A DNA stretch of 40,566 bases from a virus, in the IMG/VR virus record IMGVR_UViG_3300006802_000025, positions 1 through 40,566 of that record; one strand, given 5' to 3'. Below are positions 2,111 to 12,270 of the stretch, one piece after another. The first letter of the stretch is position 1; each line of letters begins with the position of its first letter. A model generated the notes under the pieces. The model did not search any database. It was not told the DNA's origin and was given only the letters and a program-made list of their open reading frames with translations. The position numbers were made by a program, and so were the translations under genes.

Positions 2111-2383
2111 ATGAAGGCGCTTAACGAATCACCACAATTCTCGGAATACATGGGCCAATTAAATAGGCAGGTGGGTACTAGGAAAAGAAGTATGGTTATG
2201 AAAACTTCTGACAGGTTTTTGGTTAAGTTTGCATTGGTTTCACTGGCGGTACTGCTGGTGAAACTGGGTGCCGAATACACGTTTCAAGAATTTAAATACT
2301 ATTATCTCTGCAATTTCGCAGAGAAAAACTCAACAGGAGAGAATTTATGTCAGCATCAACAATTGAAGTATCGTACAAAGTAG
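2111..2383 (+). CDS. Small single-span membrane protein (90 aa)
   Basis: One clear transmembrane helix (FLVKFALVSLAVLLVKLGA, about residues 36-54) follows a basic N-terminal region containing RKR, which suggests an N-in topology. A GAGG ribosome site lies 6 bases before the ATG. The last 12 codons overlap the start of the ubiquitin-like gene at 2347 in another frame, so the two are probably translationally coupled. Function is unknown; inner-membrane location is inferred from the span. Confidence 0.65.
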   Translation: MKALNESPQFSEYMGQLNRQVGTRKRSMVMKTSDRFLVKFALVSLAVLLVKLGAEYTFQEFKYYYLCNFAEKNSTGENLCQHQQLKYRTK

Positions 2384-2562
2384 TGGGTGGGAAACTTAAG
2401 ACTATTGAACTAGCACAAGGGGCTAAGGTTAGCGACCTTGTTAAAGCGGCCGGATTAGAAGGGAACTACGCAGCGACTATTGGTTCAAATCCTGCTGAGA
2501 TGTCTGATACACTAGCGGAAGGTCACACTGTATTCTTGTCGCTTCAAGTAAAAGGCGCTTAA
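2347..2562 (+). CDS. Ubiquitin-like beta-grasp modifier (ThiS/MoaD/Ubl type)
   Basis: The 71-aa protein has the length and pattern of a beta-grasp fold. A beta hairpin (TIEVSYKVVGGK, LKTIELAQG) is followed by a helix (KVSDLVKAAGLE), a strand (YAATIG) and the final L-x-E-G-H-T-V-F-L-SLQV strand typical of ThiS/MoaD and Ubl proteins. The tail ends K-G-A instead of the usual Gly-Gly, so a peptidase may have to remove the last Ala before activation. A strong GGAGAG ribosome site lies 6 bases upstream. E2, E1 and JAB genes lie downstream on the same strand, making this the likely conjugated modifier. Assignment is by pattern and context, not by database search. Confidence 0.7.
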   Translation: MSASTIEVSYKVVGGKLKTIELAQGAKVSDLVKAAGLEGNYAATIGSNPAEMSDTLAEGHTVFLSLQVKGA

Positions 2563-2593
2563 TCGAAAGTCAGAATTGTAACGGGTTCACACT

Positions 2594-2613
2594 GGGTGCT
2601 CTTAGGAGTGCCC
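2594..2613 (+). terminator. Hairpin after the Ubl gene (attenuator-like)
   Basis: GGGTGCTC and GAGTGCCC (8 bp, two G-T wobbles) enclose a TTAG loop and are followed by TTTGTG. Outer CACA/TGTG segments can extend it. It lies 31 bases after the Ubl stop. The T-run is short, so partial termination or RNA stabilisation is more likely than full termination. Confidence 0.4.
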
Positions 2614-2635
2614 TTTGTGCGTTGAGAGGTGCAAA

Positions 2636-2907
2636 ATGTCTAAAACTAAACAAGAGATATGGGAAAAAAAGCAGATAAATATTTCCCTAAGGAATATTCG
2701 CCAAACAGTCCAGAATATACTTTATTTGTTCGTGGATTTACACAAGCTAGATTTCTAGCTGAAGAAGAAATGTATGACTTAGAAAAAGCTACCAAAATAT
2801 CAAGAGACGCACTTCTTCAAGCATATCTTGATAGTAGAAAACTATTGAGGTCTTTAAGGAAGCAATTGAAGGATGAGAGATGTCTAAAAAGAAACAAGAG
2901 CCAGTAA
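2636..2907 (+). CDS. Hypothetical protein, probably made by -1 frameshifting (90 aa)
   Basis: The well-initiated ATG at 2636 (GAGAGG ribosome site about 6 bases upstream) opens a frame that ends at 2758 after 40 residues. At codons 11-12 it contains the heptamer A-AAA-AAG (2665-2671). A -1 shift there enters the frame that stays open to 2907, giving a 90-aa protein: 12 residues (MSKTKQEIWEKK) joined to 78 residues starting ADKYFPKEY. The only other start for the long frame is ATG 2659, giving 82 aa, but its purine-rich site is just 2 bases away. The product is charged and helical, of unknown function. A missing A in the seven-A run would look the same. Confidence 0.55.
2665..2698 (+). promoter_or_regulatory. 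-1 ribosomal frameshift signal: A-AAA-AAG plus hairpin
   Basis: The slippery heptamer A AAA AAG (2665-2671) is in the correct phase for the ATG at 2636. Six bases downstream, AATATTTCC (2678-2686) pairs with GGAATATT (2691-2698) around a CTAA loop with one bulged T. The spacing matches known -1 stimulatory structures, and the heptamer is the one used in E. coli dnaX. The stem is AU-rich and therefore weak. Confidence 0.5.
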
Positions 2908-3086
2908 TATTCTCGCAGTACCAATGCAGAATGATGCTCTGGATGCACCAGAACCATGTGCCTTGGCGCGATATGGTAGGACAGTATGGGCTTAATAAGT
3001 TCCAAGTGCTGAGGTTCTTGAGGTTATTGAAAGAGGGTAAATTGCCACGTATGCGTAAGCGTGTGGCCTATAAAACTGAGGAGTAA
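2880..3086 (+). CDS. Hypothetical 68-aa basic protein, possible HTH
   Basis: The segment PWRDMVGQYGLNKFQVLRFLRLLKEG reads as two helices around a turn, like a small helix-turn-helix. The C-terminus is strongly basic (RMRKRVAYK). Together these make DNA binding plausible but unproven. Its start overlaps the end of the preceding gene by 28 bases, and an AAGGA site lies upstream within that gene. The next gene begins 2 bases after its stop, so translation is likely coupled. Confidence 0.55.
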   Translation: MSKKKQEPVIFSQYQCRMMLWMHQNHVPWRDMVGQYGLNKFQVLRFLRLLKEGKLPRMRKRVAYKTEE

Positions 3087-3088
3087 AT

Positions 3089-3298
3089 ATGACTATCTGG
3101 CTGATTATTATGATTAAATGTGTTCAGATGCCGGCAGATAAACCGCCGTATCAAGTGTCGTGTTACACGACGACTGCCTCTAGGGGAGATTTCAAGACTA
3201 AGAAGAAATGTGAAGAGGGCATGAAAGAATTGCTCAAAGACGATGTTATTCCTCTGGATGCGAAGTGCGTATCTGCCAAGGTTTGGAGGGACAAATGA
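3089..3298 (+). CDS. Hypothetical 69-aa protein with hydrophobic N-terminus
   Basis: The first residues (TIWLIIMIKC) are hydrophobic but short for a membrane anchor; they could be a signal or the core of a small fold. The remainder has four further cysteines and a lysine-rich middle (KTKKKCEEGMKELLKDD). The cysteines suggest either export with disulfides or metal binding, but I cannot decide which. A GAGGAG ribosome site overlaps the end of the previous gene. Its stop overlaps the next start as ATGA. Confidence 0.55.
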   Translation: MTIWLIIMIKCVQMPADKPPYQVSCYTTTASRGDFKTKKKCEEGMKELLKDDVIPLDAKCVSAKVWRDK

Positions 3299-3387
3299 GA
3301 ATCAATTGGTTAAACATGTTAGTATGGGTTTTCATACTATGTTTCTGCACTGCATTCTGGGCATTTGTACTTAGTTTAATTTTCTAA
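3295..3387 (+). CDS. 30-aa single-span membrane peptide
   Basis: A short frame begins at ATG 3295, overlapping the preceding stop as ATGA, with a GGAGGG ribosome site 4-5 bases upstream. It ends at TAA 3385-3387. After MRINWLN nearly the whole peptide is hydrophobic (LVWVFILCFCTAFWAFVLSLIF), enough for one transmembrane helix. Perfect operon spacing and the strong ribosome site argue that it is translated. Its role is unknown; it could act on the host membrane. Confidence 0.55.
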   Translation: MRINWLNMLVWVFILCFCTAFWAFVLSLIF

Positions 3388-3400
3388 TTTAGAGGGTTAC

Positions 3401-3835
3401 ATGGAAGAAGATAAAAAACCTGAGTTCTACGAGGGAGTAGAGGTAAAAAAATTCAAGGCTTTTGGTGAGCCTTTGACTATTAAAACCTGCAAGCAAGGCA
3501 GAAAAGTAAACCTAGAAATGCTTGTTAAGGGCGACAAGCTAAATAAGATCGGCAGGCATCACACTAAGGGCTTTGGTGAGGGAGTTCGTAAGAGGCATAG
3601 AGGTGAAGACCCAATGAAGCTTAGGCTCACGGCGTACAATATTATTAAGCACCCGAAAGCTAGCCCTAAACAGATTGAAGTCGCTAAGATTTTTCTGGAA
3701 TTGTATGGGCACCACGATGCAGAGAATATCCGAGAAAATATTGAAAAGTTAAGAGAAGCGAGAAAACTAGCTAAGTATTTTGATATGTGTAGCTTATTGA
3801 CAGCTATTGCTAAAACACTGGGGAAGTATAAATGA
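3401..3835 (+). CDS. Hypothetical 144-aa protein coupled to the E2 gene
   Basis: No family is recognised. It is basic, with a Lys/His/Arg-rich central stretch (GRHHTKGFGEGVRKRHRGED) and a helical C-terminal half (ASPKQIEVAKIFLELYG, EKLREARKLAKYF). That pattern is compatible with a nucleic-acid-binding or adaptor protein. The stop overlaps the E2 start (ATGA at 3832), so the two proteins are probably made in fixed ratio. It may belong functionally to the conjugation cassette, for example as target or adaptor, but this is inference from position only. Confidence 0.65.
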   Translation: MEEDKKPEFYEGVEVKKFKAFGEPLTIKTCKQGRKVNLEMLVKGDKLNKIGRHHTKGFGEGVRKRHRGEDPMKLRLTAYNIIKHPKASPKQIEVAKIFLELYGHHDAENIRENIEKLREARKLAKYFDMCSLLTAIAKTLGKYK

Positions 3836-5949
3836 GCGACGAGTCAATATTGTCTCAACAACTAACAGGAAGACAACTTCGTGGGCGCAGTGCCACTTAT
3901 GTGGTGTTAGATGAAGCGGCTAATCCTGCCATAAATCTGGAAGCTGGGGCATTGAATCTTAGAGATCATCAGAGAGATGCCATGGACTATATAAACGAAA
4001 GCCCTGTCAGAAGATTCTGGGCTATTCCTAATGATGACGACCGACCATGGCAAGTCGAGTACCTAGGTGAGATTCAGCCTAGGGAATTAAAACCAAAAAA
4101 GAAAAAACGAGTGGTCAATGACCCGAATATTAACCAAGGAGATACTATGAGCGATCAAGCTGCAGAGGCAAGCCCGTTTGACAGCGTGCCATTTGCACCG
4201 AATGAAGTGTTAACTGCGCCACCAACATTGCAGGAATTAACCTTAACTCTGGGGGATTTCAAAGACCCCGCCAGACACGTGATTCTACTTAACGATCTAA
4301 TGGAGAAAAGATTCATCTCTCCAAAGGCCAAGGAAAATGACAATAGTTTCCTGACCGAACAAACCCAGTGCCTTGAAGTCATTCTTCAACTGGCAGGTGA
4401 TGTTGAGCACTCTGATTCAATTATGTTGCACCAATTCATTCAACCAATTTCTAGGTCTAATACCAGAAGACTCGTATCTACAACTGCTGCCATGAACATT
4501 GTCTTCCATAATCACAAAGTGGAGATTGAAAAAGCCAAGATTGAAGCAGAAAGATTAGAGCGACTTAAGAATTTCGATAAGGTGCTGAAGGAAAAAATGA
4601 TGGTGGTTCCCGCTTCACTTCCTAAGATTGCTAAGTCTTCCGCACTTATGCGTCAACTCGACAACTATCAGGTAAACCTTGAGAACAACACGTACCAGAT
4701 TGAGGATTTAAACGCTCAAATTTTTAGTCTAAGAACCGAGAACACTGGTTATATTAAACAAATTCGAGAGATTAGGGCTTACCTCAAAAATATACATGGG
4801 GGCGCTGAAGACCTAGATGAGTTAAGCGAGTTCCTTGCCTTTACTCAACGAGCGGACGGTGTGAAGTTTCCATTCAAATTTATCGGGATCATTCCTCAAA
4901 GAAACAATAGCGAGAAAATCAGATTCCTATTCTCAAAAGATGATTTTACTCTGCGCGACAAGGACACTGAGATTGATTGGCTAATTCCTAAACTGAACGT
5001 CATTATTGATCTAACCAAGAGCTACGATACAGGGCTTTGGAGCTATGGGATAATGGCACCGACCTCTTATGTTCTTGGCAATAACTTAGGCGTTATTTTC
5101 CCATACAACAGCAGTGATGACTCCAGAAATGGTAACTCTATTATCCACCCGCACATTAAAGAGGAAGGGCATATCTGCCTAGGTAACGCCGCCGAAATGC
5201 TTCAAGGTATGGCGACGGATATTAGTAAGATTGAGGACTCATTGCTCGTTATCAATACACTGATGAACAACTACAATCCATCATCTCCGTACCAAGGTAT
5301 CGTTAACTACTACCAGTATTCTGCGAAGTATCTAAGAAACATTGCGTTGAATAATCGAATGGGGCAGGACTCTTTCACTAAGAACCTATCGAATAAAGTT
5401 TTCAAGGGAGAGATCACTTTCAAGGAATTATTCGCCGAGTTTTGCGATAAGAATATGCAGATTGTGCGCCATAGATTAATGACTATGCATCTAGCTAACG
5501 GTTACACTCTTGAAAATTGGGGAGATGCTGGATGGACTATTGATACTTTCAAAAGTTTATTAGACTCAACATCAGAAAGTTACTCTTGGAGTACTTCACT
5601 TAAACAGTACCGACCATTCAGTAACTCAGACGATCAGTATAATTTCATTAATAACTCTAAGTACTTCATGAATCCAAGGAAATATGGGTATCATTTCGGC
5701 AATTTCTACGAGTTGTATTATATTAACTCTAGATCTCCAGAAGCTAACTACTATGTGCAGAATGATATCATCGAGGCGCTTGAGATATATAACGAGATTG
5801 TTAAGGCTGATATTCTTAAAGTCGTCGAAATTAAAATCAAGAACCTAGAGAATTGTTTTACTAATAACTACGATGTTCCTTTCAGCACTAACCTAGATTT
5901 AGGTTCGATGAGCTTTAAGAAATGGTTCACAGAAATAAGGAAAAAATAA
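3832..5949 (+). CDS. E2-like ubiquitin-conjugating enzyme, large (705 aa)
   Basis: The central segment carries the hallmark of prokaryotic E2/UBC domains. H439-P-H441 is followed after seven residues by C449-L-G, then helical sequence leading to N-Y-N-P-S-S-P-Y. Cys449 would carry the Ubl thioester. Sequence before it (VIIDL, GVIFPYN) fits the E2 beta-sheet. Residues about 230-320 are coiled-coil-like and may hold dimers or partners. The C-terminal 230 residues are unrecognised. A second start at 4147 has its own AAGGAG site and would give a 600-aa form. The stop overlaps the E1 start (TAATG). At 705 aa it is several times the size of a bare E2 domain (about 150 aa). Confidence 0.75.
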   Translation: MSDESILSQQLTGRQLRGRSATYVVLDEAANPAINLEAGALNLRDHQRDAMDYINESPVRRFWAIPNDDDRPWQVEYLGEIQPRELKPKKKKRVVNDPNINQGDTMSDQAAEASPFDSVPFAPNEVLTAPPTLQELTLTLGDFKDPARHVILLNDLMEKRFISPKAKENDNSFLTEQTQCLEVILQLAGDVEHSDSIMLHQFIQPISRSNTRRLVSTTAAMNIVFHNHKVEIEKAKIEAERLERLKNFDKVLKEKMMVVPASLPKIAKSSALMRQLDNYQVNLENNTYQIEDLNAQIFSLRTENTGYIKQIREIRAYLKNIHGGAEDLDELSEFLAFTQRADGVKFPFKFIGIIPQRNNSEKIRFLFSKDDFTLRDKDTEIDWLIPKLNVIIDLTKSYDTGLWSYGIMAPTSYVLGNNLGVIFPYNSSDDSRNGNSIIHPHIKEEGHICLGNAAEMLQGMATDISKIEDSLLVINTLMNNYNPSSPYQGIVNYYQYSAKYLRNIALNNRMGQDSFTKNLSNKVFKGEITFKELFAEFCDKNMQIVRHRLMTMHLANGYTLENWGDAGWTIDTFKSLLDSTSESYSWSTSLKQYRPFSNSDDQYNFINNSKYFMNPRKYGYHFGNFYELYYINSRSPEANYYVQNDIIEALEIYNEIVKADILKVVEIKIKNLENCFTNNYDVPFSTNLDLGSMSFKKWFTEIRKK

Positions 5950-6662
5950 TGGAAGCTAAAAAACTACAAGAGACAAGTTTATATTCACGTTTTCACGATG
6001 TTATTAACAGCAAGCACACTGACCAGAGAGTCGTGATCTTTGGGTGTGGAAGCATTGGGTCATACACTGCACTGGCGTTATTCAAGATGGGCTTCAGGAA
6101 TCTGACGTTTATTGATTACGATATTGTCGAGGCAGAGAACATTGGAACTCAGTTATTTTACGAGAGTGACATTGGTGAGTTCAAGCACCACGCACTGCCC
6201 GAGAACCTAGAGCTAATGTCGAATGAATCACAGCTTGGCTTTATTAGCATGGAACACAAGTTCGAGTACGACATGGCAAAAGATTTCATGGCGCTCAACG
6301 AGATATGCCAAGGTGCAATTATCGTTTGTGCAATTGACAGCATGAAGGCCAGAGAATGGCTGTTCAAACTGGCACCGAGCATGGGTGCGCTTCGATTCAT
6401 TGATGGGCGCATGGCGATAGAGTTCCTCGATGTTTACTCGGTGAATCCTAATGTTCCAGAAAGCGCTGAAAAGTACAGGAAAACATTGTTCTCGGACGAT
6501 GATGCAGTCCCTATGCCGTGTACCAATAAGTCAATCGGTTATACTGCCATGATTTCTGGCGGTGTAATTGGCAAGATGGTCAAGGACGTGGTGACAGGCA
6601 AGGCAGAGAATTACCAGAACTTTAAATTCGATATCAACCTTTTAGGTGGGGAGTGTATGTAA
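5949..6662 (+). CDS. E1-like ThiF/MoeB-family adenylating enzyme (237 aa)
   Basis: The N-terminus has the Rossmann nucleotide loop GCGSIGSY after strand VVIFG. It is followed by the ThiF signature F-I-D-Y-D-x-V-E-x-x-N-x-x-x-Q and a later hydrophobic strand and Asp (IIVCAIDS). This family adenylates the C-terminus of a beta-grasp modifier and passes it to a cysteine. Cys191, in PMPCTNKSIGYTA, lies where catalytic cysteines of compact E1 proteins are often found. The start is the ATG overlapping the E2 stop, with AAGGA 7 bases upstream. The protein is about the length of a bare ThiF domain, with no second inactive adenylation domain. It lies directly between the E2 and JAB genes. Confidence 0.85.
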   Translation: MEAKKLQETSLYSRFHDVINSKHTDQRVVIFGCGSIGSYTALALFKMGFRNLTFIDYDIVEAENIGTQLFYESDIGEFKHHALPENLELMSNESQLGFISMEHKFEYDMAKDFMALNEICQGAIIVCAIDSMKAREWLFKLAPSMGALRFIDGRMAIEFLDVYSVNPNVPESAEKYRKTLFSDDDAVPMPCTNKSIGYTAMISGGVIGKMVKDVVTGKAENYQNFKFDINLLGGECM

Positions 6663-7783
6663 TGGCTTCAGGACAAGTACAATTAAAAATCAGAATCATG
6701 CGTCAAGCATACACAAAACTATTCTACTTCGTTGATAAGTGCGACGTAGAGATCGGCTTCATGGGCAAGGTAGTGTTTAACCCTGCCAAGATGAGCTATG
6801 ATATTCTCTCGGTTCACGTGCCAGAGCAAGAAGTCACAGGTTCTACGACTGACCTCGATGCGCAAGCCGTGGCCAAACTAGACTGCGATACTATTGGTGA
6901 GAAGGGGCACCTTAACGCTTGGCTACACAGCCACGTTAACATGGGTGTGTTTTGGTCCGGCACCGATAAGGATACGATCAAAGAGATCGGGGAGCAGGGG
7001 CTTTGCGTGGCAGTAGTTGTCAACAAGAAGCGTGAAATCCGTGGTGCTATTTACTGGAAGGGTAACTCAGAGAAGCAAGATGATTTCTTCCCATGCTTTC
7101 CAGTCGAGGGCTTTGTTGATGAGGTTCCGGTCGAAGTTGTTGACGTTGTTAACGATATGCAGGAATGGAACAAAGAACTTGAAGCCAAGGTTAAGAAGAA
7201 AGTTTACGAGTCTAACTACCCTCACGGCAGATATAATAATCAGACGGGAAAATGGGAGTACAACTATACGGGAAAGCACAATCCTTCCACTACGACGGCT
7301 ACGGTGATTGGCGGTGGGGGGACGACTATTAACAACGTGGCGTACTATCTTGACCAGATTGAGACATTCAAAGAGCAACTTCAAAAGACTTGCACTGTTG
7401 GTTCCAACGGTCAGTTAATCCTGACACACAAGCAGAAGAAACGCCTCGACTATCTGACCGGCAGGTTACTAATGGCAGAACAGAAGGAACGTGAGCAAGA
7501 GGGCAAAAGAGCGGTCGAGAAACAATTGGCCCTTGTTAAGCCAAGCGAAGAACCGGCCAAATTCTCTGGCACAATGGACGGCGATCAGCTATACACTGAT
7601 GAGCAACTCTTCGAGCTAAGCTTCACTGACCTTAAGGCAGAGCTTGACCACTTAGTTAAGACACACATGATCTCACCCGGTGAGGCGGAAGATGTTGTGG
7701 TGCAGTGGAGAACTTGCCTTCCTAGATTAGAAGCCAAGAAGAAAGCAGACGGTACTAACTTTAATCCAGATGGGGGATGCTAA
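6662..7783 (+). CDS. JAB/JAMM metallo-isopeptidase (373 aa)
   Basis: The complete JAMM zinc motif is present: E30 in VEIGFMGKV, then H89-S-H91, S99 and D102 in HSHVNMGVFWSGTD, matching H-x-H-x7-S-x2-D. Such enzymes cleave ubiquitin-like modifiers from targets or trim modifier precursors. The JAB domain covers about residues 5-140. The C-terminal 230 residues include a Gly-rich linker and charged coiled-coil segments of unknown role. The start at 6662 overlaps the E1 stop (TAATG) and has a GGTGGGGAG site. It may also mature the Ubl, whose tail ends in Ala rather than Gly. Confidence 0.85.
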   Translation: MASGQVQLKIRIMRQAYTKLFYFVDKCDVEIGFMGKVVFNPAKMSYDILSVHVPEQEVTGSTTDLDAQAVAKLDCDTIGEKGHLNAWLHSHVNMGVFWSGTDKDTIKEIGEQGLCVAVVVNKKREIRGAIYWKGNSEKQDDFFPCFPVEGFVDEVPVEVVDVVNDMQEWNKELEAKVKKKVYESNYPHGRYNNQTGKWEYNYTGKHNPSTTTATVIGGGGTTINNVAYYLDQIETFKEQLQKTCTVGSNGQLILTHKQKKRLDYLTGRLLMAEQKEREQEGKRAVEKQLALVKPSEEPAKFSGTMDGDQLYTDEQLFELSFTDLKAELDHLVKTHMISPGEAEDVVVQWRTCLPRLEAKKKADGTNFNPDGGC

Positions 7784-8037
7784 TGGCACACAAGAAATGG
7801 GTAATTGCAATTACAAATGAAGAGATAATGCCCGGCCAAGTTATATACTTTGCGCCGGCAAGAGAGGATGGGGGAGTGAAAGCTCTCCTCCACATGACAG
7901 AGGCAATGAAGTTCTACTCAGAGAGTCAAGCCAATGCCTTCATCAAAAGACACTTAACACTAACCAAGGGCGCAGAGGCTAAGGCTGTGCTCTATGTTAG
8001 AGGAGGGAACGGCGATGTTTTGTTGGAAGAAAGGTAG
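7783..8037 (+). CDS. Hypothetical 84-aa protein after the JAB gene
   Basis: The start at 7783 overlaps the JAB stop (TAATG) and has a GGGGG ribosome site 6 bases upstream; an in-frame ATG at 7777 is the alternative. The sequence has short strands (KWVIAITNEE, GQVIYFAPA) and a helix around ESQANAFIKRHL, so it is a small alpha/beta protein. No family is recognised. Tight coupling on both sides places it in the Ubl cassette transcript. It overlaps the next gene by 23 bases. Confidence 0.6.
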   Translation: MAHKKWVIAITNEEIMPGQVIYFAPAREDGGVKALLHMTEAMKFYSESQANAFIKRHLTLTKGAEAKAVLYVRGGNGDVLLEER

Positions 8038-8356
8038 GCAAGGCAACTATTCAGTGCTAACTTTATTCTCTATCTGGTTCTTTGATTTCCATATCATCAA
8101 GATTCCAGATGGCGTTGACGTACCATGGCACACGGACTCGGTTGCAGGCAAGCGCCACTTCAGAATTAACTTTCATATCAATGAGAACCAACGCATCCGG
8201 TACATGGGCGAGAATCTTAAGAGCTATTTATCTGGCAGAATAGTTTACTTTCGCCCCGACTTAAGACTGCATATGGTCAAGAAACATGGTGGCTATAACA
8301 GCAATAAGAGACCGACTATCATACTCTCATTCGGATGGGTAAGGAGCATAGCGTGA
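8015..8356 (+). CDS. Possible Fe(II)/2-oxoglutarate-type hydroxylase-like protein (113 aa)
   Basis: The start at 8015 is chosen because AGGAGGG lies about 7 bases upstream; the frame is open from 7994. The protein reads as a compact double-stranded beta-helix. VPWH39-T-D41 would supply the HxD metal ligands, followed by RHFRINFHI strands, GRIVYFRP, distal H86 and KRPTIILSFGW. This spacing resembles aspartyl/asparaginyl beta-hydroxylase-like folds, but it is shorter than most enzymes of that class. It is the last gene of the Ubl cassette. A hydroxylated protein substrate is possible, but assignment rests on a short motif only. Confidence 0.45.
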   Translation: MFCWKKGRQGNYSVLTLFSIWFFDFHIIKIPDGVDVPWHTDSVAGKRHFRINFHINENQRIRYMGENLKSYLSGRIVYFRPDLRLHMVKKHGGYNSNKRPTIILSFGWVRSIA

Positions 8357-8432: not shown

Positions 8433-10802
8433 TTGGAAGCCAATAAGATTCAGCTTATCAAGTATCGGGAAGGTCTTGATAGGAAGACAAGTAAACCTTA
8501 TATTTATCACGAACTTATACCTCATATTGAGATTAGTTCTATTGAATCTTTGTTCAAGAATCTGGACAAGATCATCGACGCTATTCCAGTAGAGGACAGA
8601 TGGAACGTGCATTACACTACGGCCAACTGTTTAGCGCCGGAGTTGATCGGTACGCGATGGAAAAACCTGAGGCAGTTCAGCTATCAAGAGATGATACCCA
8701 TCGACCTCGATGGCATAGACCTCGCCAAGGCTGAGGAATACATTAAGCTCACCCTCGATTTTCTCAAGGTCGATTATAACAAGACCGGCATTTTCAATTC
8801 GGGGCACGGCTTGCATTTTGTTATTCTCCTCGACTCGCCTATCGAAAGTGTAAAGGATTTAGAATTTCTTCAGCCTTATTATACAGAACTTTGCGTCCAA
8901 CTTGGAGCATTATTTTTCAAGAACGGATTAAAAGGTGAGGCTGACCCGATCAGATTGTGTGAAGCGGCAACGCTCAGGCTTCCAAAAACATGGAATAGAA
9001 AACAGAATAAGCCAGAAGTTTTATCTTCTGTGATTCAAGGGACAGTGGAAAGACAACCGTTCTACCTTGACAGGCTAGTTACTCCGCCTACTCCTCAGGA
9101 GAAGCTAGCTATGGCAGGGTATAACGTGGACTCTGCCGCTGTCCTTTCTGGATGCGAGTTCCTTAAGCACTGCTATGCGAATCAGGAAACATTGAGCGAA
9201 CCTGAATGGTACGCGATGCTCGGCACAATGGCTTTCATTCCTGACATTGGCAGGGAGTTATGTCACACGTATAGCGAGAAGCATCCGACATATTCCCGTG
9301 ACGTTACCGATCAGAAAATCGACCAAGCTATTGGCTTCGGTAGGCCACGCCTATGCTCTGGAATCAATGAGGTATTCACAGGGTGCGTCAACTGTAAGCA
9401 CTTTCTCAAGTGCAAAACTCCACTTCAAATTAAAAGCGAAGAATTTATCGCTACCGAAAAGACCGGATTCCATGAGGTAATCTTTGATGCCAATGGCAAT
9501 CCATCTAAATTCATTCCATCATACTCGGACTTAGTGAAATACTTTGCCCGATCTCATCAGTACTGCGTCGACAAGAAAACTAAAATCGTTTACATATTCA
9601 ACGGAAAACATTGGGAAGAAAGAACCGAGCTTGAGCTTGACGCATTTGCTACGTCCAACTTCCAGCCAGTGGCAAACAATACCAAACGCTCCGAGTTCCG
9701 CGGGCTACTATACTCTACCAATGTAGTGGATGATGATTTCTTTCACGGTAAAACCGACGGGTTTATCAACTTCAATAACGGTATCCTACACATAGCATCA
9801 AGAACCTTGACTCCTCACTCGGCAGAGAAAGGCTTTAAGTACGTGCTCCCTTATGACTACAATCCACAGGCCAAGTGCCCTACGTTTGATAAGTTCATGA
9901 ACGACATCACGCTAAACGATGTCGATTTACAAAAGATCATTCTCGAATTTATGGCTTACGCAATCTCTGGCTTTGACCCGCACTGGGGTCAGAAAGCTTT
10001 AATCATGGTAGGGATTGGTTCCAATGGTAAGTCAACTTTAATCCAAGCAATGCAGGATTTAGTGGGGCCTCAATCATATACCACCGTCTCGCTGTCACAC
10101 ATGGCCAACGAGAACATGAGGGAAACGCTAGTCAATAAGCTCTTTAATATCTCAGAAGAAGAAAAGTACGACGCACTCAGAGACTCCAGTGAGTTTAAAA
10201 ACCTAGTCACTGGAGGTAACACGATGGTAAAGAGAATGTATCATCAGCCCTACACCACCAAGATCATGGCAAAGTTAATCATCGGGTGTAACGAAGTACC
10301 ACCTACTAATGACCATACACAGGGTACATATCGAAGACTATTAATCGTTCCACTAAGGGCAGTGTTCAATAAAGAGAATGGCAACCTTGATCTTGATATG
10401 AAATCAAAACTCAGAAGCGAGATGAGCGGTATCTATAATAGAATCCTAGAGGGATACGAGCGCCTTGTTACCAATAAGAAGTTCAGTGAATCCACGATTG
10501 TTAACGAGGAGCTTGATAAATATAAGCAAGACAATGACTTCGTTGCTCAGTTCTTCTCAGAGGTTATCGAGAATACCTTAAACGATATGGACTTCCTATC
10601 TAGTGAGGAGATTCTGGCAGAGTATAACGAGTGGCGCAGAGTCAATGGCGTTAAGCTAGAGTACACCTCGGTCACATTAATCAAGAGAATTAAATTGATT
10701 TTGAATAATAGGGAACCAACACAAAGAAGAGTTAAGACAGGAATGGTTAAGAGAGGAATGGCAGGCATCAGGTTTAAATATAGAATGGCCGTTACAATGT
10801 AG
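8433..10802 (+). CDS. Primase-helicase: AEP-like primase plus D5/SF3 helicase (789 aa)
   Basis: It probably primes and unwinds DNA at the phage fork. The N-terminal domain has archaeo-eukaryotic-primase-like motifs: IPIDLDG (acidic metal ligands), SGHGLHFVI, and a downstream Arg/Lys region (LRLPKTWN). A cysteine cluster near residues 307-330 (CSGI...CVNCKHFLKC) may bind zinc. The C-terminal SF3 ATPase has Walker A GIGSNGKST (Lys533), an acidic NISEEE segment and the sensor region LIIGCNEVPPTND followed by YRRLL. The start is TTG at 8433, preceded by AGGGA; no ATG gives a full primase domain. DNA polymerase, SNF2 helicase and nuclease genes follow. Confidence 0.85.
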   Translation: MEANKIQLIKYREGLDRKTSKPYIYHELIPHIEISSIESLFKNLDKIIDAIPVEDRWNVHYTTANCLAPELIGTRWKNLRQFSYQEMIPIDLDGIDLAKAEEYIKLTLDFLKVDYNKTGIFNSGHGLHFVILLDSPIESVKDLEFLQPYYTELCVQLGALFFKNGLKGEADPIRLCEAATLRLPKTWNRKQNKPEVLSSVIQGTVERQPFYLDRLVTPPTPQEKLAMAGYNVDSAAVLSGCEFLKHCYANQETLSEPEWYAMLGTMAFIPDIGRELCHTYSEKHPTYSRDVTDQKIDQAIGFGRPRLCSGINEVFTGCVNCKHFLKCKTPLQIKSEEFIATEKTGFHEVIFDANGNPSKFIPSYSDLVKYFARSHQYCVDKKTKIVYIFNGKHWEERTELELDAFATSNFQPVANNTKRSEFRGLLYSTNVVDDDFFHGKTDGFINFNNGILHIASRTLTPHSAEKGFKYVLPYDYNPQAKCPTFDKFMNDITLNDVDLQKIILEFMAYAISGFDPHWGQKALIMVGIGSNGKSTLIQAMQDLVGPQSYTTVSLSHMANENMRETLVNKLFNISEEEKYDALRDSSEFKNLVTGGNTMVKRMYHQPYTTKIMAKLIIGCNEVPPTNDHTQGTYRRLLIVPLRAVFNKENGNLDLDMKSKLRSEMSGIYNRILEGYERLVTNKKFSESTIVNEELDKYKQDNDFVAQFFSEVIENTLNDMDFLSSEEILAEYNEWRRVNGVKLEYTSVTLIKRIKLILNNREPTQRRVKTGMVKRGMAGIRFKYRMAVTM

Positions 10803-10809
10803 GAGGAAT

Positions 10810-12270
10810 ATGAAATATGACGGATTACTCAGAGGTCTTGCGGTTGAGCCTTATAAACATCAGCGAGAGGCATTGGTTTTTGCTCAAGATAAACCGCACG
10901 TGGCGCTGTTGTGGGAAATGGGAACAGGAAAAACCGGGGGAGCGATACTTCTTGCGAGGTCTAGATACTTCGACGCAGGACGTATACTACGTACACTTAT
11001 TGTTACCCCACCCGTCACAATTACTAACTGGAAGGACGAGTTTAAAAGATGGAGTCACATTCCAGAGAACCTCGTACACGCCCTTCTCCAACCGAGTGGA
11101 AAAAAGAAGGCAGAGTATCTGCACAATAGAGTCATTCCAAGCTTTGATGGAGGAGTTGTCATCACCAACTATGAGGCACTGCTTACAGAATGTCTTTTCG
11201 ATGCCATTGAGAAATGGAAACCTGAGCTTATCATCTTCGATGAGGTACATTACGTTAAGAGTGCCAAGAGAAAGCGATCTAAACTTTCGCAACGACTGGC
11301 AACAGCGGCAAACTTTATTATCTCTCTTACTGGAACCCCGATTCTTAAGGACGTACGTGACGTATACGGCATATTTAGGACGGCAGATGTGGGACTTCTC
11401 TTTGGCAGAAACGAACAGCTATTTGCATTTAGATACCTTATTGATGAGAACGCAGGCTGGGCTGGAAAAGCATCTTACTTCCCTAAATGGAAGAATAATC
11501 CGGCAACCTTCCCCGAGCTTAACGAAAAGATTTATTCTAAGTCTCTTCGGAAATTAAAGAGCGAGTGCCTAGACTTACCGCCACTTGTCAAGATAAAGCG
11601 CAGTGTTCCAATGTCACCCGATCAAGCTAAGGCGTATAAGGAAGTCGAGAAAGATTTCTACTCGTCACTTAACTCGGACGGTGCCACGGTCTCAGCTAAC
11701 CTTGCCATTGTTAAAGCGCTCCGCCTATTGCAGATATGCACTGGATTTGTAGGGACTGATGAAGGTGATGAGCACGTCTTTGAAACTAATCCAAGGCTTG
11801 AGCTTTGCGAGGAATATCTAGCGGAACTCACGCCTAATCACAAGGTCATTGTGTGGTGTAGCTTCAGGCAGAACTATAAAATGTTAGAGGGCTTATGTAA
11901 AAAATTGGGGGTTAAATATGTCATGCTCACAGGAGATACCAAAGATAAAGGAGGTGCCGTTGACACGTTCCAGAATGATCCTGAATGTCGCGTCATTATT
12001 GCTAACCGTGGCGCTGGTGGGGTCGGCGTTAATCTTACAGCCGCTAGTTACTCCATTGTTTATAGCCGAAACTTCTCACTTGCAGAGGAGCTTCAGTCTG
12101 AAGCAAGAAACCACAGAGGCGGTAGCCAGATACATGACCAGATTGTAAAGATAGATTTGTTCGCGACCGATACCATAGAGGAAACGGTTCTCGAATCACT
12201 GACCAATAAACAAGAGGGGGCCACGGCGGTTCTCGATAAAATAAGAGGTGGCAATGGAATTAGAAGTTAA
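10810..12270 (+). CDS. SNF2-like DEAD/DEAH-box helicase (486 aa)
   Basis: It is a superfamily 2 ATPase acting on DNA. Visible motifs are a Q-like N-terminus (EPYKHQREAL), Walker A GTGK41T, motif Ia TLIVTPP, motif II D144-E-V-H, motif III SLTGTP, motif IV/V VIVWCSF and ANRGAGGVGVNLT, and motif VI QSEARNHRGGSQ. The layout and size match phage SNF2-type helicases found next to replication genes. An AGGAGG site lies 4 bases before the ATG. It may remodel or anneal DNA during replication or recombination. The next gene overlaps its end by 17 bases. Confidence 0.88.
   Translation: MKYDGLLRGLAVEPYKHQREALVFAQDKPHVALLWEMGTGKTGGAILLARSRYFDAGRILRTLIVTPPVTITNWKDEFKRWSHIPENLVHALLQPSGKKKAEYLHNRVIPSFDGGVVITNYEALLTECLFDAIEKWKPELIIFDEVHYVKSAKRKRSKLSQRLATAANFIISLTGTPILKDVRDVYGIFRTADVGLLFGRNEQLFAFRYLIDENAGWAGKASYFPKWKNNPATFPELNEKIYSKSLRKLKSECLDLPPLVKIKRSVPMSPDQAKAYKEVEKDFYSSLNSDGATVSANLAIVKALRLLQICTGFVGTDEGDEHVFETNPRLELCEEYLAELTPNHKVIVWCSFRQNYKMLEGLCKKLGVKYVMLTGDTKDKGGAVDTFQNDPECRVIIANRGAGGVGVNLTAASYSIVYSRNFSLAEELQSEARNHRGGSQIHDQIVKIDLFATDTIEETVLESLTNKQEGATAVLDKIRGGNGIRS

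Follow-up and report, generated by a model that had tools for sequence, protein, structure and literature searches.

A probable phage-owned ubiquitin-like conjugation pathway beside the primase gene of podovirus-type and crAss-like phages

Introduction

In bacteria, ubiquitin-like conjugation is known chiefly as a means of anti-phage defence. The Bil and Bub operons are bacterial systems in which a separate ubiquitin-like modifier (Ubl) is accompanied by partners of the E1, E2 and JAB types. Bacterial clusters uniting E1, E2, JAB and Ubl genes have been known since 2006, as described in the survey by Iyer, Burroughs and Aravind (PMC1779556). In this work, a stretch of 40,566 bases, the whole of the IMG/VR record IMGVR_UViG_3300006802_000025 (hereafter the window), was analyzed. 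By gene content it belongs to a podovirus-type phage, and it carries genes for a Ubl, an E2, an E1 and a JAMM/JAB peptidase. We propose that these four genes very probably constitute a working, phage-owned ubiquitin-like conjugation pathway, whatever its target. This reading is based on homology, intact catalytic residues, a fold model of the Ubl, the co-occurrence of the genes and their conserved position, from which we infer the chemistry of the pathway, the maturation of its tag, its timing and its target.

Results

A sequence-only reading of the window had listed four genes, for the Ubl, E2, E1 and JAB, and all of them are borne out by open reading frames (ORFs) on the plus strand. The Ubl (71 amino acids) lies at 2347..2562, the E2-like conjugating enzyme (705 amino acids) at 3832..5949, the E1-like adenylating enzyme of ThiF/UBA fold at 5949..6662 (237 amino acids, or 246 from an upstream ATG at 5922), and the JAMM/JAB metallopeptidase at 6662..7783 (373 amino acids, or 376 from a GTG at 6653). 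The E2 stop overlaps the E1 start in a TAATG at 5947-5951 and the E1 stop overlaps the JAB start in another at 6660-6664, which fits the translational coupling of these three genes that the same reading had suggested. Its residue numbers are right for an E1 starting at 5949 and a JAB starting at 6662 (E30, H89, H91, S99 and D102 of the latter become E33, H92, H94, S102 and D105 when counted from 6653). The profile searches that it had advised gave a divided answer. The E1 matched Pfam ThiF at 8.8e-24, above the cut-off, but the Ubl and the JAB scored alone fell below the Pfam cut-offs, as did the E2 with UQ_con (0.0017 for the whole protein, 1.5e-4 for the core); all three were nevertheless recovered via phage families.

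The 71-residue protein, predicted to be a beta-grasp protein, was modeled as such by AlphaFold with a predicted local distance difference test score (pLDDT) of 83. The best Foldseek matches of the model were ISG15 (E 1.6e-4), ubiquitin and SUMO, and VIA-align gave a Z of about 9 against ubiquitin-fold chains, with MoaD and TtuB fitting too. By BLASTP, the window Ubl is 34-39% identical to the Ubls of related phages (best E 2e-8). In nearly all collected Ubls, from all three lineages recovered (crAss-type, the window's own and a third one), the Ubl domain ends in K/x-(S, E, D, K)-G with a single Gly, followed by at least one residue. The tail is a lone Ala after ...QVKG in the window, whose C-terminus reads ...LSLQVKGA, and measures 1 to about 240 residues elsewhere, the crAss-type Ubl bearing a long C-terminal extension. 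Since nearly all Ubls combine a single Gly with a tail, the precursor must be trimmed before an E1 can use the Gly. In the window the Gly for adenylation stands one residue from the end and would likewise have to be exposed; the predicted maturation site, with a cut after the conserved Gly70, corresponds to the Gly70-Ala71 codons at 2554..2559 (plus strand). A Ubl tail that needs trimming, together with a conserved JAMM peptidase, points to the JAMM enzyme as the peptidase that most likely matures the tag.

This enzyme had been described as a JAMM peptidase with intact E, H, H, S and D, and indeed none of the residues of the motif E...HxH(x7)S(x2)D varies among 15 sequences. The window JAB was recovered at 5.4e-10 by a profile of its phage homologues built without the window, and the JAB family profile matched archaeal and eukaryotic Rpn11 at 4.7e-12. 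Judged by these profiles, the family appears closest to the Rpn11 isopeptidases, and a role as deconjugase is likely.

The E1 retains the GxGxxG and the ThiF/MoeB-type character attributed to it. A profile built without the window recovered it at 2e-53, and profile comparison places it closest to the solved structures of UBA5, UBA6, UBA7, MccB, ThiF and MoeB, with BubCD also among the PDB matches. Numbered from 5922, its invariant residues are G41, G43, D65, D67, N73, Q77, K88, D139 and C200. The last of these is Cys191 when counted from 5949 (codon at 6519..6521, plus strand); it is invariant in both the crAss-type and the window/planctomycete-type alignments, and its conservation suggests that it is the catalytic Cys.

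The E2 has its catalytic core at about residues 355-500, with the motif H439-P440-H441...C449-L-G451. H439, P440, C449 and G451 are invariant in one E2 alignment, and H439, H441, C449 and G451 across 35 E2 cores. The predicted catalytic Cys449, within HPHIKEEGHICLG, is encoded at 5176..5178 (plus strand). A phage E2 profile built without the window recovered the window E2 at 2.8e-14. The profile of the 35 cores was compared with a eukaryotic ubiquitin-conjugating (UBC) profile made of three UBCs. They matched at E 6.5e-6 (probability 85%) with the active-site Cys aligned, the score of 37.6 standing against 13.5 or less for reversed or column-shuffled decoys. It is by this profile comparison that a predicted UBC fold with Cys449 as its active-site Cys is assigned to the 705-residue protein. 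Matches to PDB sequences were weak (Ube2N, E about 0.5), and Prok-E2_D was matched weakly by 1 of the 35 cores.

The crAss-type E2s carry the motif H-S-H...C-x-G. Their profile did not match the eukaryotic UBC profile directly (E 0.55) but matched the window-type E2 profile (E 8.8e-5). Neither the window E2 nor the window Ubl is found with the corresponding crAss-type profile, and the link between both types was made via intermediate lineages; tblastn of the window E2 and JAB against GenBank phages gave no matches. In the third lineage, the E2s end in a Cys-rich region resembling an E3-type zinc-binding tail. Long C-terminal Cys-rich repeats, with 31-52 Cys per protein, were seen in the E2s of one phage lineage (loci L039, L045, L052, L069, L091, L107 and L111 of our collection). 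These repeats may be built-in E3-type zinc domains.

The four-gene set is far from restricted to the window. Carriers among crAss-like phages and phages of Flavobacterium were first indicated by an E1 search of GenBank phages. Whether the Ubl or the E2 of cr128_1 is taken as query, 74 GenBank phage records are matched, with identical counts by organism, and the carriers include crAss001, DAC15 and Flavobacterium psychrophilum phages. The crAss-type order is extended Ubl, E2, JAB and E1, between the primase and a function-unassigned gene that is followed by a uracil-DNA glycosylase gene. In GenBank the genes of the set are labeled thiamine biosynthesis protein, metalloprotease domain or hypothetical. 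Cultured phages with the full Ubl-E2-JAB-E1 set, crAss-like ones from the human gut included, are found at L002, L003 and L007-L011 (crAss001 gp76-gp79, with gp79 as the Ubl, gp78 as the E2, gp77 as the JAB and gp76 as the E1, DAC15, Fpv1 and others), and a fifth conserved, function-unassigned gene follows E1 (gp75 in crAss001).

In IMG/VR, more than 100 contigs carry the set, usually next to the primase. Among the relatives found by a scan with the E1 alignment, 80 of 250 were kept, and all four genes were present in 72 of the 87 loci examined, mostly of the crAss type. A second scan, based on the lineage to which the window belongs, brought up 61 loci, with four-gene sets on most contigs of window/planctomycete-type phages. 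Close relatives of the window stand among L092-L099 and L104, with identities of 54-58% for the large terminase (L092, L095, L096, L099), 55% for the portal (L092), and 31-39% and 42-47% for the primase and helicase, respectively (L093, L096, L104). They keep the set upstream of the primase, as was seen in L093, L096 and L104. A contig identical to the window, IMGVR_UViG_3300025889_015459, was left out as an independent relative. The third lineage comprises phage contigs of up to about 190 kb together with cellular loci. The 67 cellular loci in GTDB genomes come mostly from metagenome-assembled genomes (MAGs) of Planctomycetota, with the four genes complete in 44 of them; some of these MAG contigs may be viral. 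As the set is widespread among phages, it is to be regarded as a recurrent phage system and not as one defence operon captured by one phage.

Several loci show departures from the common arrangement. In the Flavobacterium phage Fpv1 (L003:6075-7070), a minus-strand ORF (6238-6987) separates two pieces of the JAB gene, which in the near-identical L029 is uninterrupted and encodes 423 amino acids; the E2 genes of L050 and L071 look similarly split. In L127 and L136, two E2 and JAB sets with differing Ubls lie side by side on one phage contig, and an apparent tandem Ubl fusion of 221 amino acids is found among these Ubls. L152 is a contig assigned by binning to a Thermoplasmata archaeon; its single JAB and E1 genes are surrounded by three genes of the E2 type and two of the Ubl type. 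A single genome often holds several of the Planctomycetota MAG loci (L151-L217, Ubl-E2-JAB-E1). Downstream of these loci is a conserved AAA ATPase; upstream, in many, are DUF2958 and HSP90-type ATPase genes.

While bacterial four-component clusters were already known, full phage-owned sets in replication blocks, including those of cultured crAss-like phages, appear to be new, no description of them having been found in the open-access literature. Neither did that literature yield a paper connecting crAss-like phages with such a system, although subscription papers may hold earlier notice. ThiF or metalloprotease genes of this kind go unmentioned in the crAss001 paper, a crAss genome survey and the Crassvirales review, in two of which ubiquitin and JAB were looked for as well.

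In the window itself, a Pfam scan of 44 ORFs matched 19 families. The genes recognized in the window include podovirus-type head-tail connector, portal, capsid, Sf6-type small terminase and large terminase, together with a T7 gp14-type internal protein, DNA polymerase A, primase, an SNF2/DEAD-type helicase and lysozyme. The portal is about 38% like that of HTVC010P-type Pelagibacter phages. With replication and structural genes present and no integrase or repressor among these ORFs, the early operon of a virulent phage that had been suggested fits. A primase-helicase-type protein (D5_N/DUF5906 by Pfam and PHROGs) is encoded downstream of the set at 8433..10802 (plus strand). The pathway had been taken to span 2347-8356, which holds for its four genes and requires correction in two places. 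The Ubl is not adjacent to the E2, from which four small function-unassigned genes (2659-3835) separate it, whereas in relatives such as L095 it lies directly upstream of the E2; and for the two more small genes at 7777-8356 no link to the pathway was detected. Upstream of the early genes, the intergenic region 465-1145 contains repeated GTGCCA(C/T)TTTGACACCA and CCGTGACA(A/T)AGTG elements, both as direct and as inverted copies, resembling operator or origin sites. Promoter and terminator scans of the window stayed at chance level. Among the PADLOC matches listed, ZorD, DpdE, DrmD and BrxH most likely reflect the SNF2-type helicase at 10810-12270 being hit by their models, and not defence systems.

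Discussion

The steps of the proposed mechanism follow the established chemistry of the E1, E2 and JAMM families. The JAMM enzyme would trim the Ubl precursor after the conserved Gly and could later take the tag off again. Once exposed, this Gly would be adenylated by the E1, which would then carry the tag on Cys191. From there, the tag would move to Cys449 of the E2 and be passed to an amine of the target protein, the long N- and C-terminal parts of the E2 perhaps choosing targets in place of an E3. Such a pathway would be active in early or middle infection.

As to the targets, our tentative preference is for proteins that replicate or transcribe DNA, whether of phage or host, since the set forms a core block beside the primase in unrelated phages. 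In crAss001, transcription of the middle genes, most of them reported to serve replication, takes place at 10-30 min of infection (PMC8375218), and gp76-gp79 would, by their position, belong to this class. Being a core part of the replication block speaks more for a task at the replication stage than for an accessory, dispensable one against defence. Taken broadly, we put forward, with less than even confidence, a widespread and ancient phage-owned tagging pathway that is no borrowed defence operon. It would be a core part of the replication programme in crAss-like, Flavobacterium and several podovirus and large-phage lineages, tagging viral or host replisome and transcription proteins to run the infection.

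Three points weigh against this interpretation. Gene position is the one ground for a target in the replication machinery. ThiF and MoeB carry an N-x-x-R-Q motif, the Arg of which is replaced by other residues in the E1s of both phage lineages, so that adenylation may differ in detail. Finally, the AlphaFold model of the full 705-residue E2, made from a nine-sequence alignment, was uninformative (pLDDT 41, predicted template modeling score 0.25) and does not decide on a UBC fold around Cys449.

Counter-defence is a serious rival, which we hold to be somewhat less likely than a target in the replication machinery. Here, the same conjugation pathway would tag host immune proteins and thereby inactivate them. 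Known Ubl operons do work in phage-host conflict, as in the type II cyclic oligonucleotide-based antiphage signaling system (CBASS; PMC10097602), and the window has the set among its early genes. However, the genes around the set were not recognized as an anti-defence cluster. Moreover, accessory anti-defence genes usually differ between close relatives, whereas this set keeps a constant place beside the primase in distant phages.

Less likely is a pathway whose tags go onto proteins of the virion or of its assembly, to modify their structure or maturation, a role we regard as improbable. Among the tail genes of lambda, a Ubl gene (TAPI) is accompanied by one for a JAB peptidase (TAPK) (PMC1779556), and the crAss-type Ubl has a long C-terminal extension like that of TAPI. 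The set, however, is located among replication genes and not tail or head genes, and the virion atlas of crAss001 makes no mention of gp76-gp79 in its main text.

It is very improbable that the phage took a defence operon from a host and retains it to fend off competing phages, in the manner of CBASS or Bil in a cell. Related sets do exist in Planctomycetota MAGs, and the PADLOC E1-E2 models match the E1 domain of the window, over part of the model only and with no match to the window E2. Nevertheless, neither a cGAS/DncV-like nucleotidyltransferase (CD-NTase) nor an effector domain was among the Pfam matches of the 44 ORFs, and in the E1 tree the window pairs with L092 (100/97) within a phage-only clade (96/88), which argues against recent capture. 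Least credible, and likewise ranked as less likely, is a ThiS/MoaD-type sulfur carrier with the E1 as its adenylyltransferase, serving to modify nucleotides or RNA of the phage. In its favour, ThiF-family models give scores with the E1, and MoaD and TtuB are among the folds that the Ubl model fits, but ThiS/MoaD sulfur transfer works without an E2, the full sets include an E2 with an invariant Cys and a JAMM peptidase, and no sulfur-transfer enzyme was recognized among the 44 ORFs.

If the proposal of a phage-owned conjugation pathway is true, bacterial viruses have a protein-tagging system of their own, with the pathway beside the primase in unrelated phages, including the cultured crAss001 and DAC15. 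It would give a specific function to genes now named thiamine biosynthesis, metalloprotease or hypothetical, one that can be tested in cultured phage-host pairs. It would also supply numerous divergent sequences of E1s, E2s and Ubls, which are relevant to how the ubiquitin system arose.

Among characterized systems, type II CBASS likewise combines E1 and E2 activities with a JAB peptidase (Cap2/Cap3), but Cap2 is an E1-E2 fusion that conjugates the C-terminus of a CD-NTase (PMC10097602), whereas the window has separate E1 and E2 ORFs with a dedicated Ubl. The 19 Pfam families matched in the window include no CD-NTase or other nucleotidyltransferase. The PRTRC cassette of plasmids and integrative elements shares ThiF, JAB and small Ubl-type proteins, and its models match the E1 and JAB weakly, with the weak Prok-E2_D match of a single E2 core as a further resemblance. 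Scores are far under the curated cut-offs, however (30.1 vs 144.75 bits for PRTRC ThiF, 12.8 vs 101.8 bits for PRTRC protein A), and no PRTRC gene partners were seen. The tested features of CBASS and PRTRC being absent, the set was classed as neither. The curated ThiS, ThiF and MoeB models also remained under their cut-offs, with at best 75 bits for ThiF (cut-off 159) and at most 17 bits for the Ubl. Bil and Bub differ from the present set in that the latter is phage-encoded, with a Ubl of the single-Gly-plus-tail kind and a much larger E2; no Bil-named model turned up in the family scans, in which Bil sequences themselves were not compared. Lambda TAPI/TAPK resemble the set in joining a phage Ubl with a C-terminal extension to a JAB peptidase, but they are located among tail genes and come without E1 or E2 (PMC1779556), while replication genes surround the set described here. 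The operons of that survey offer the same four component types in one cluster, with a JAB thought to process and remove the Ubl. The phage cases in the parts of it used here are lambda/T1-type tail Ubl-JAB pairs without E1 or E2 (PMC1779556), whereas the phages of the present study carry full sets within their replication blocks.

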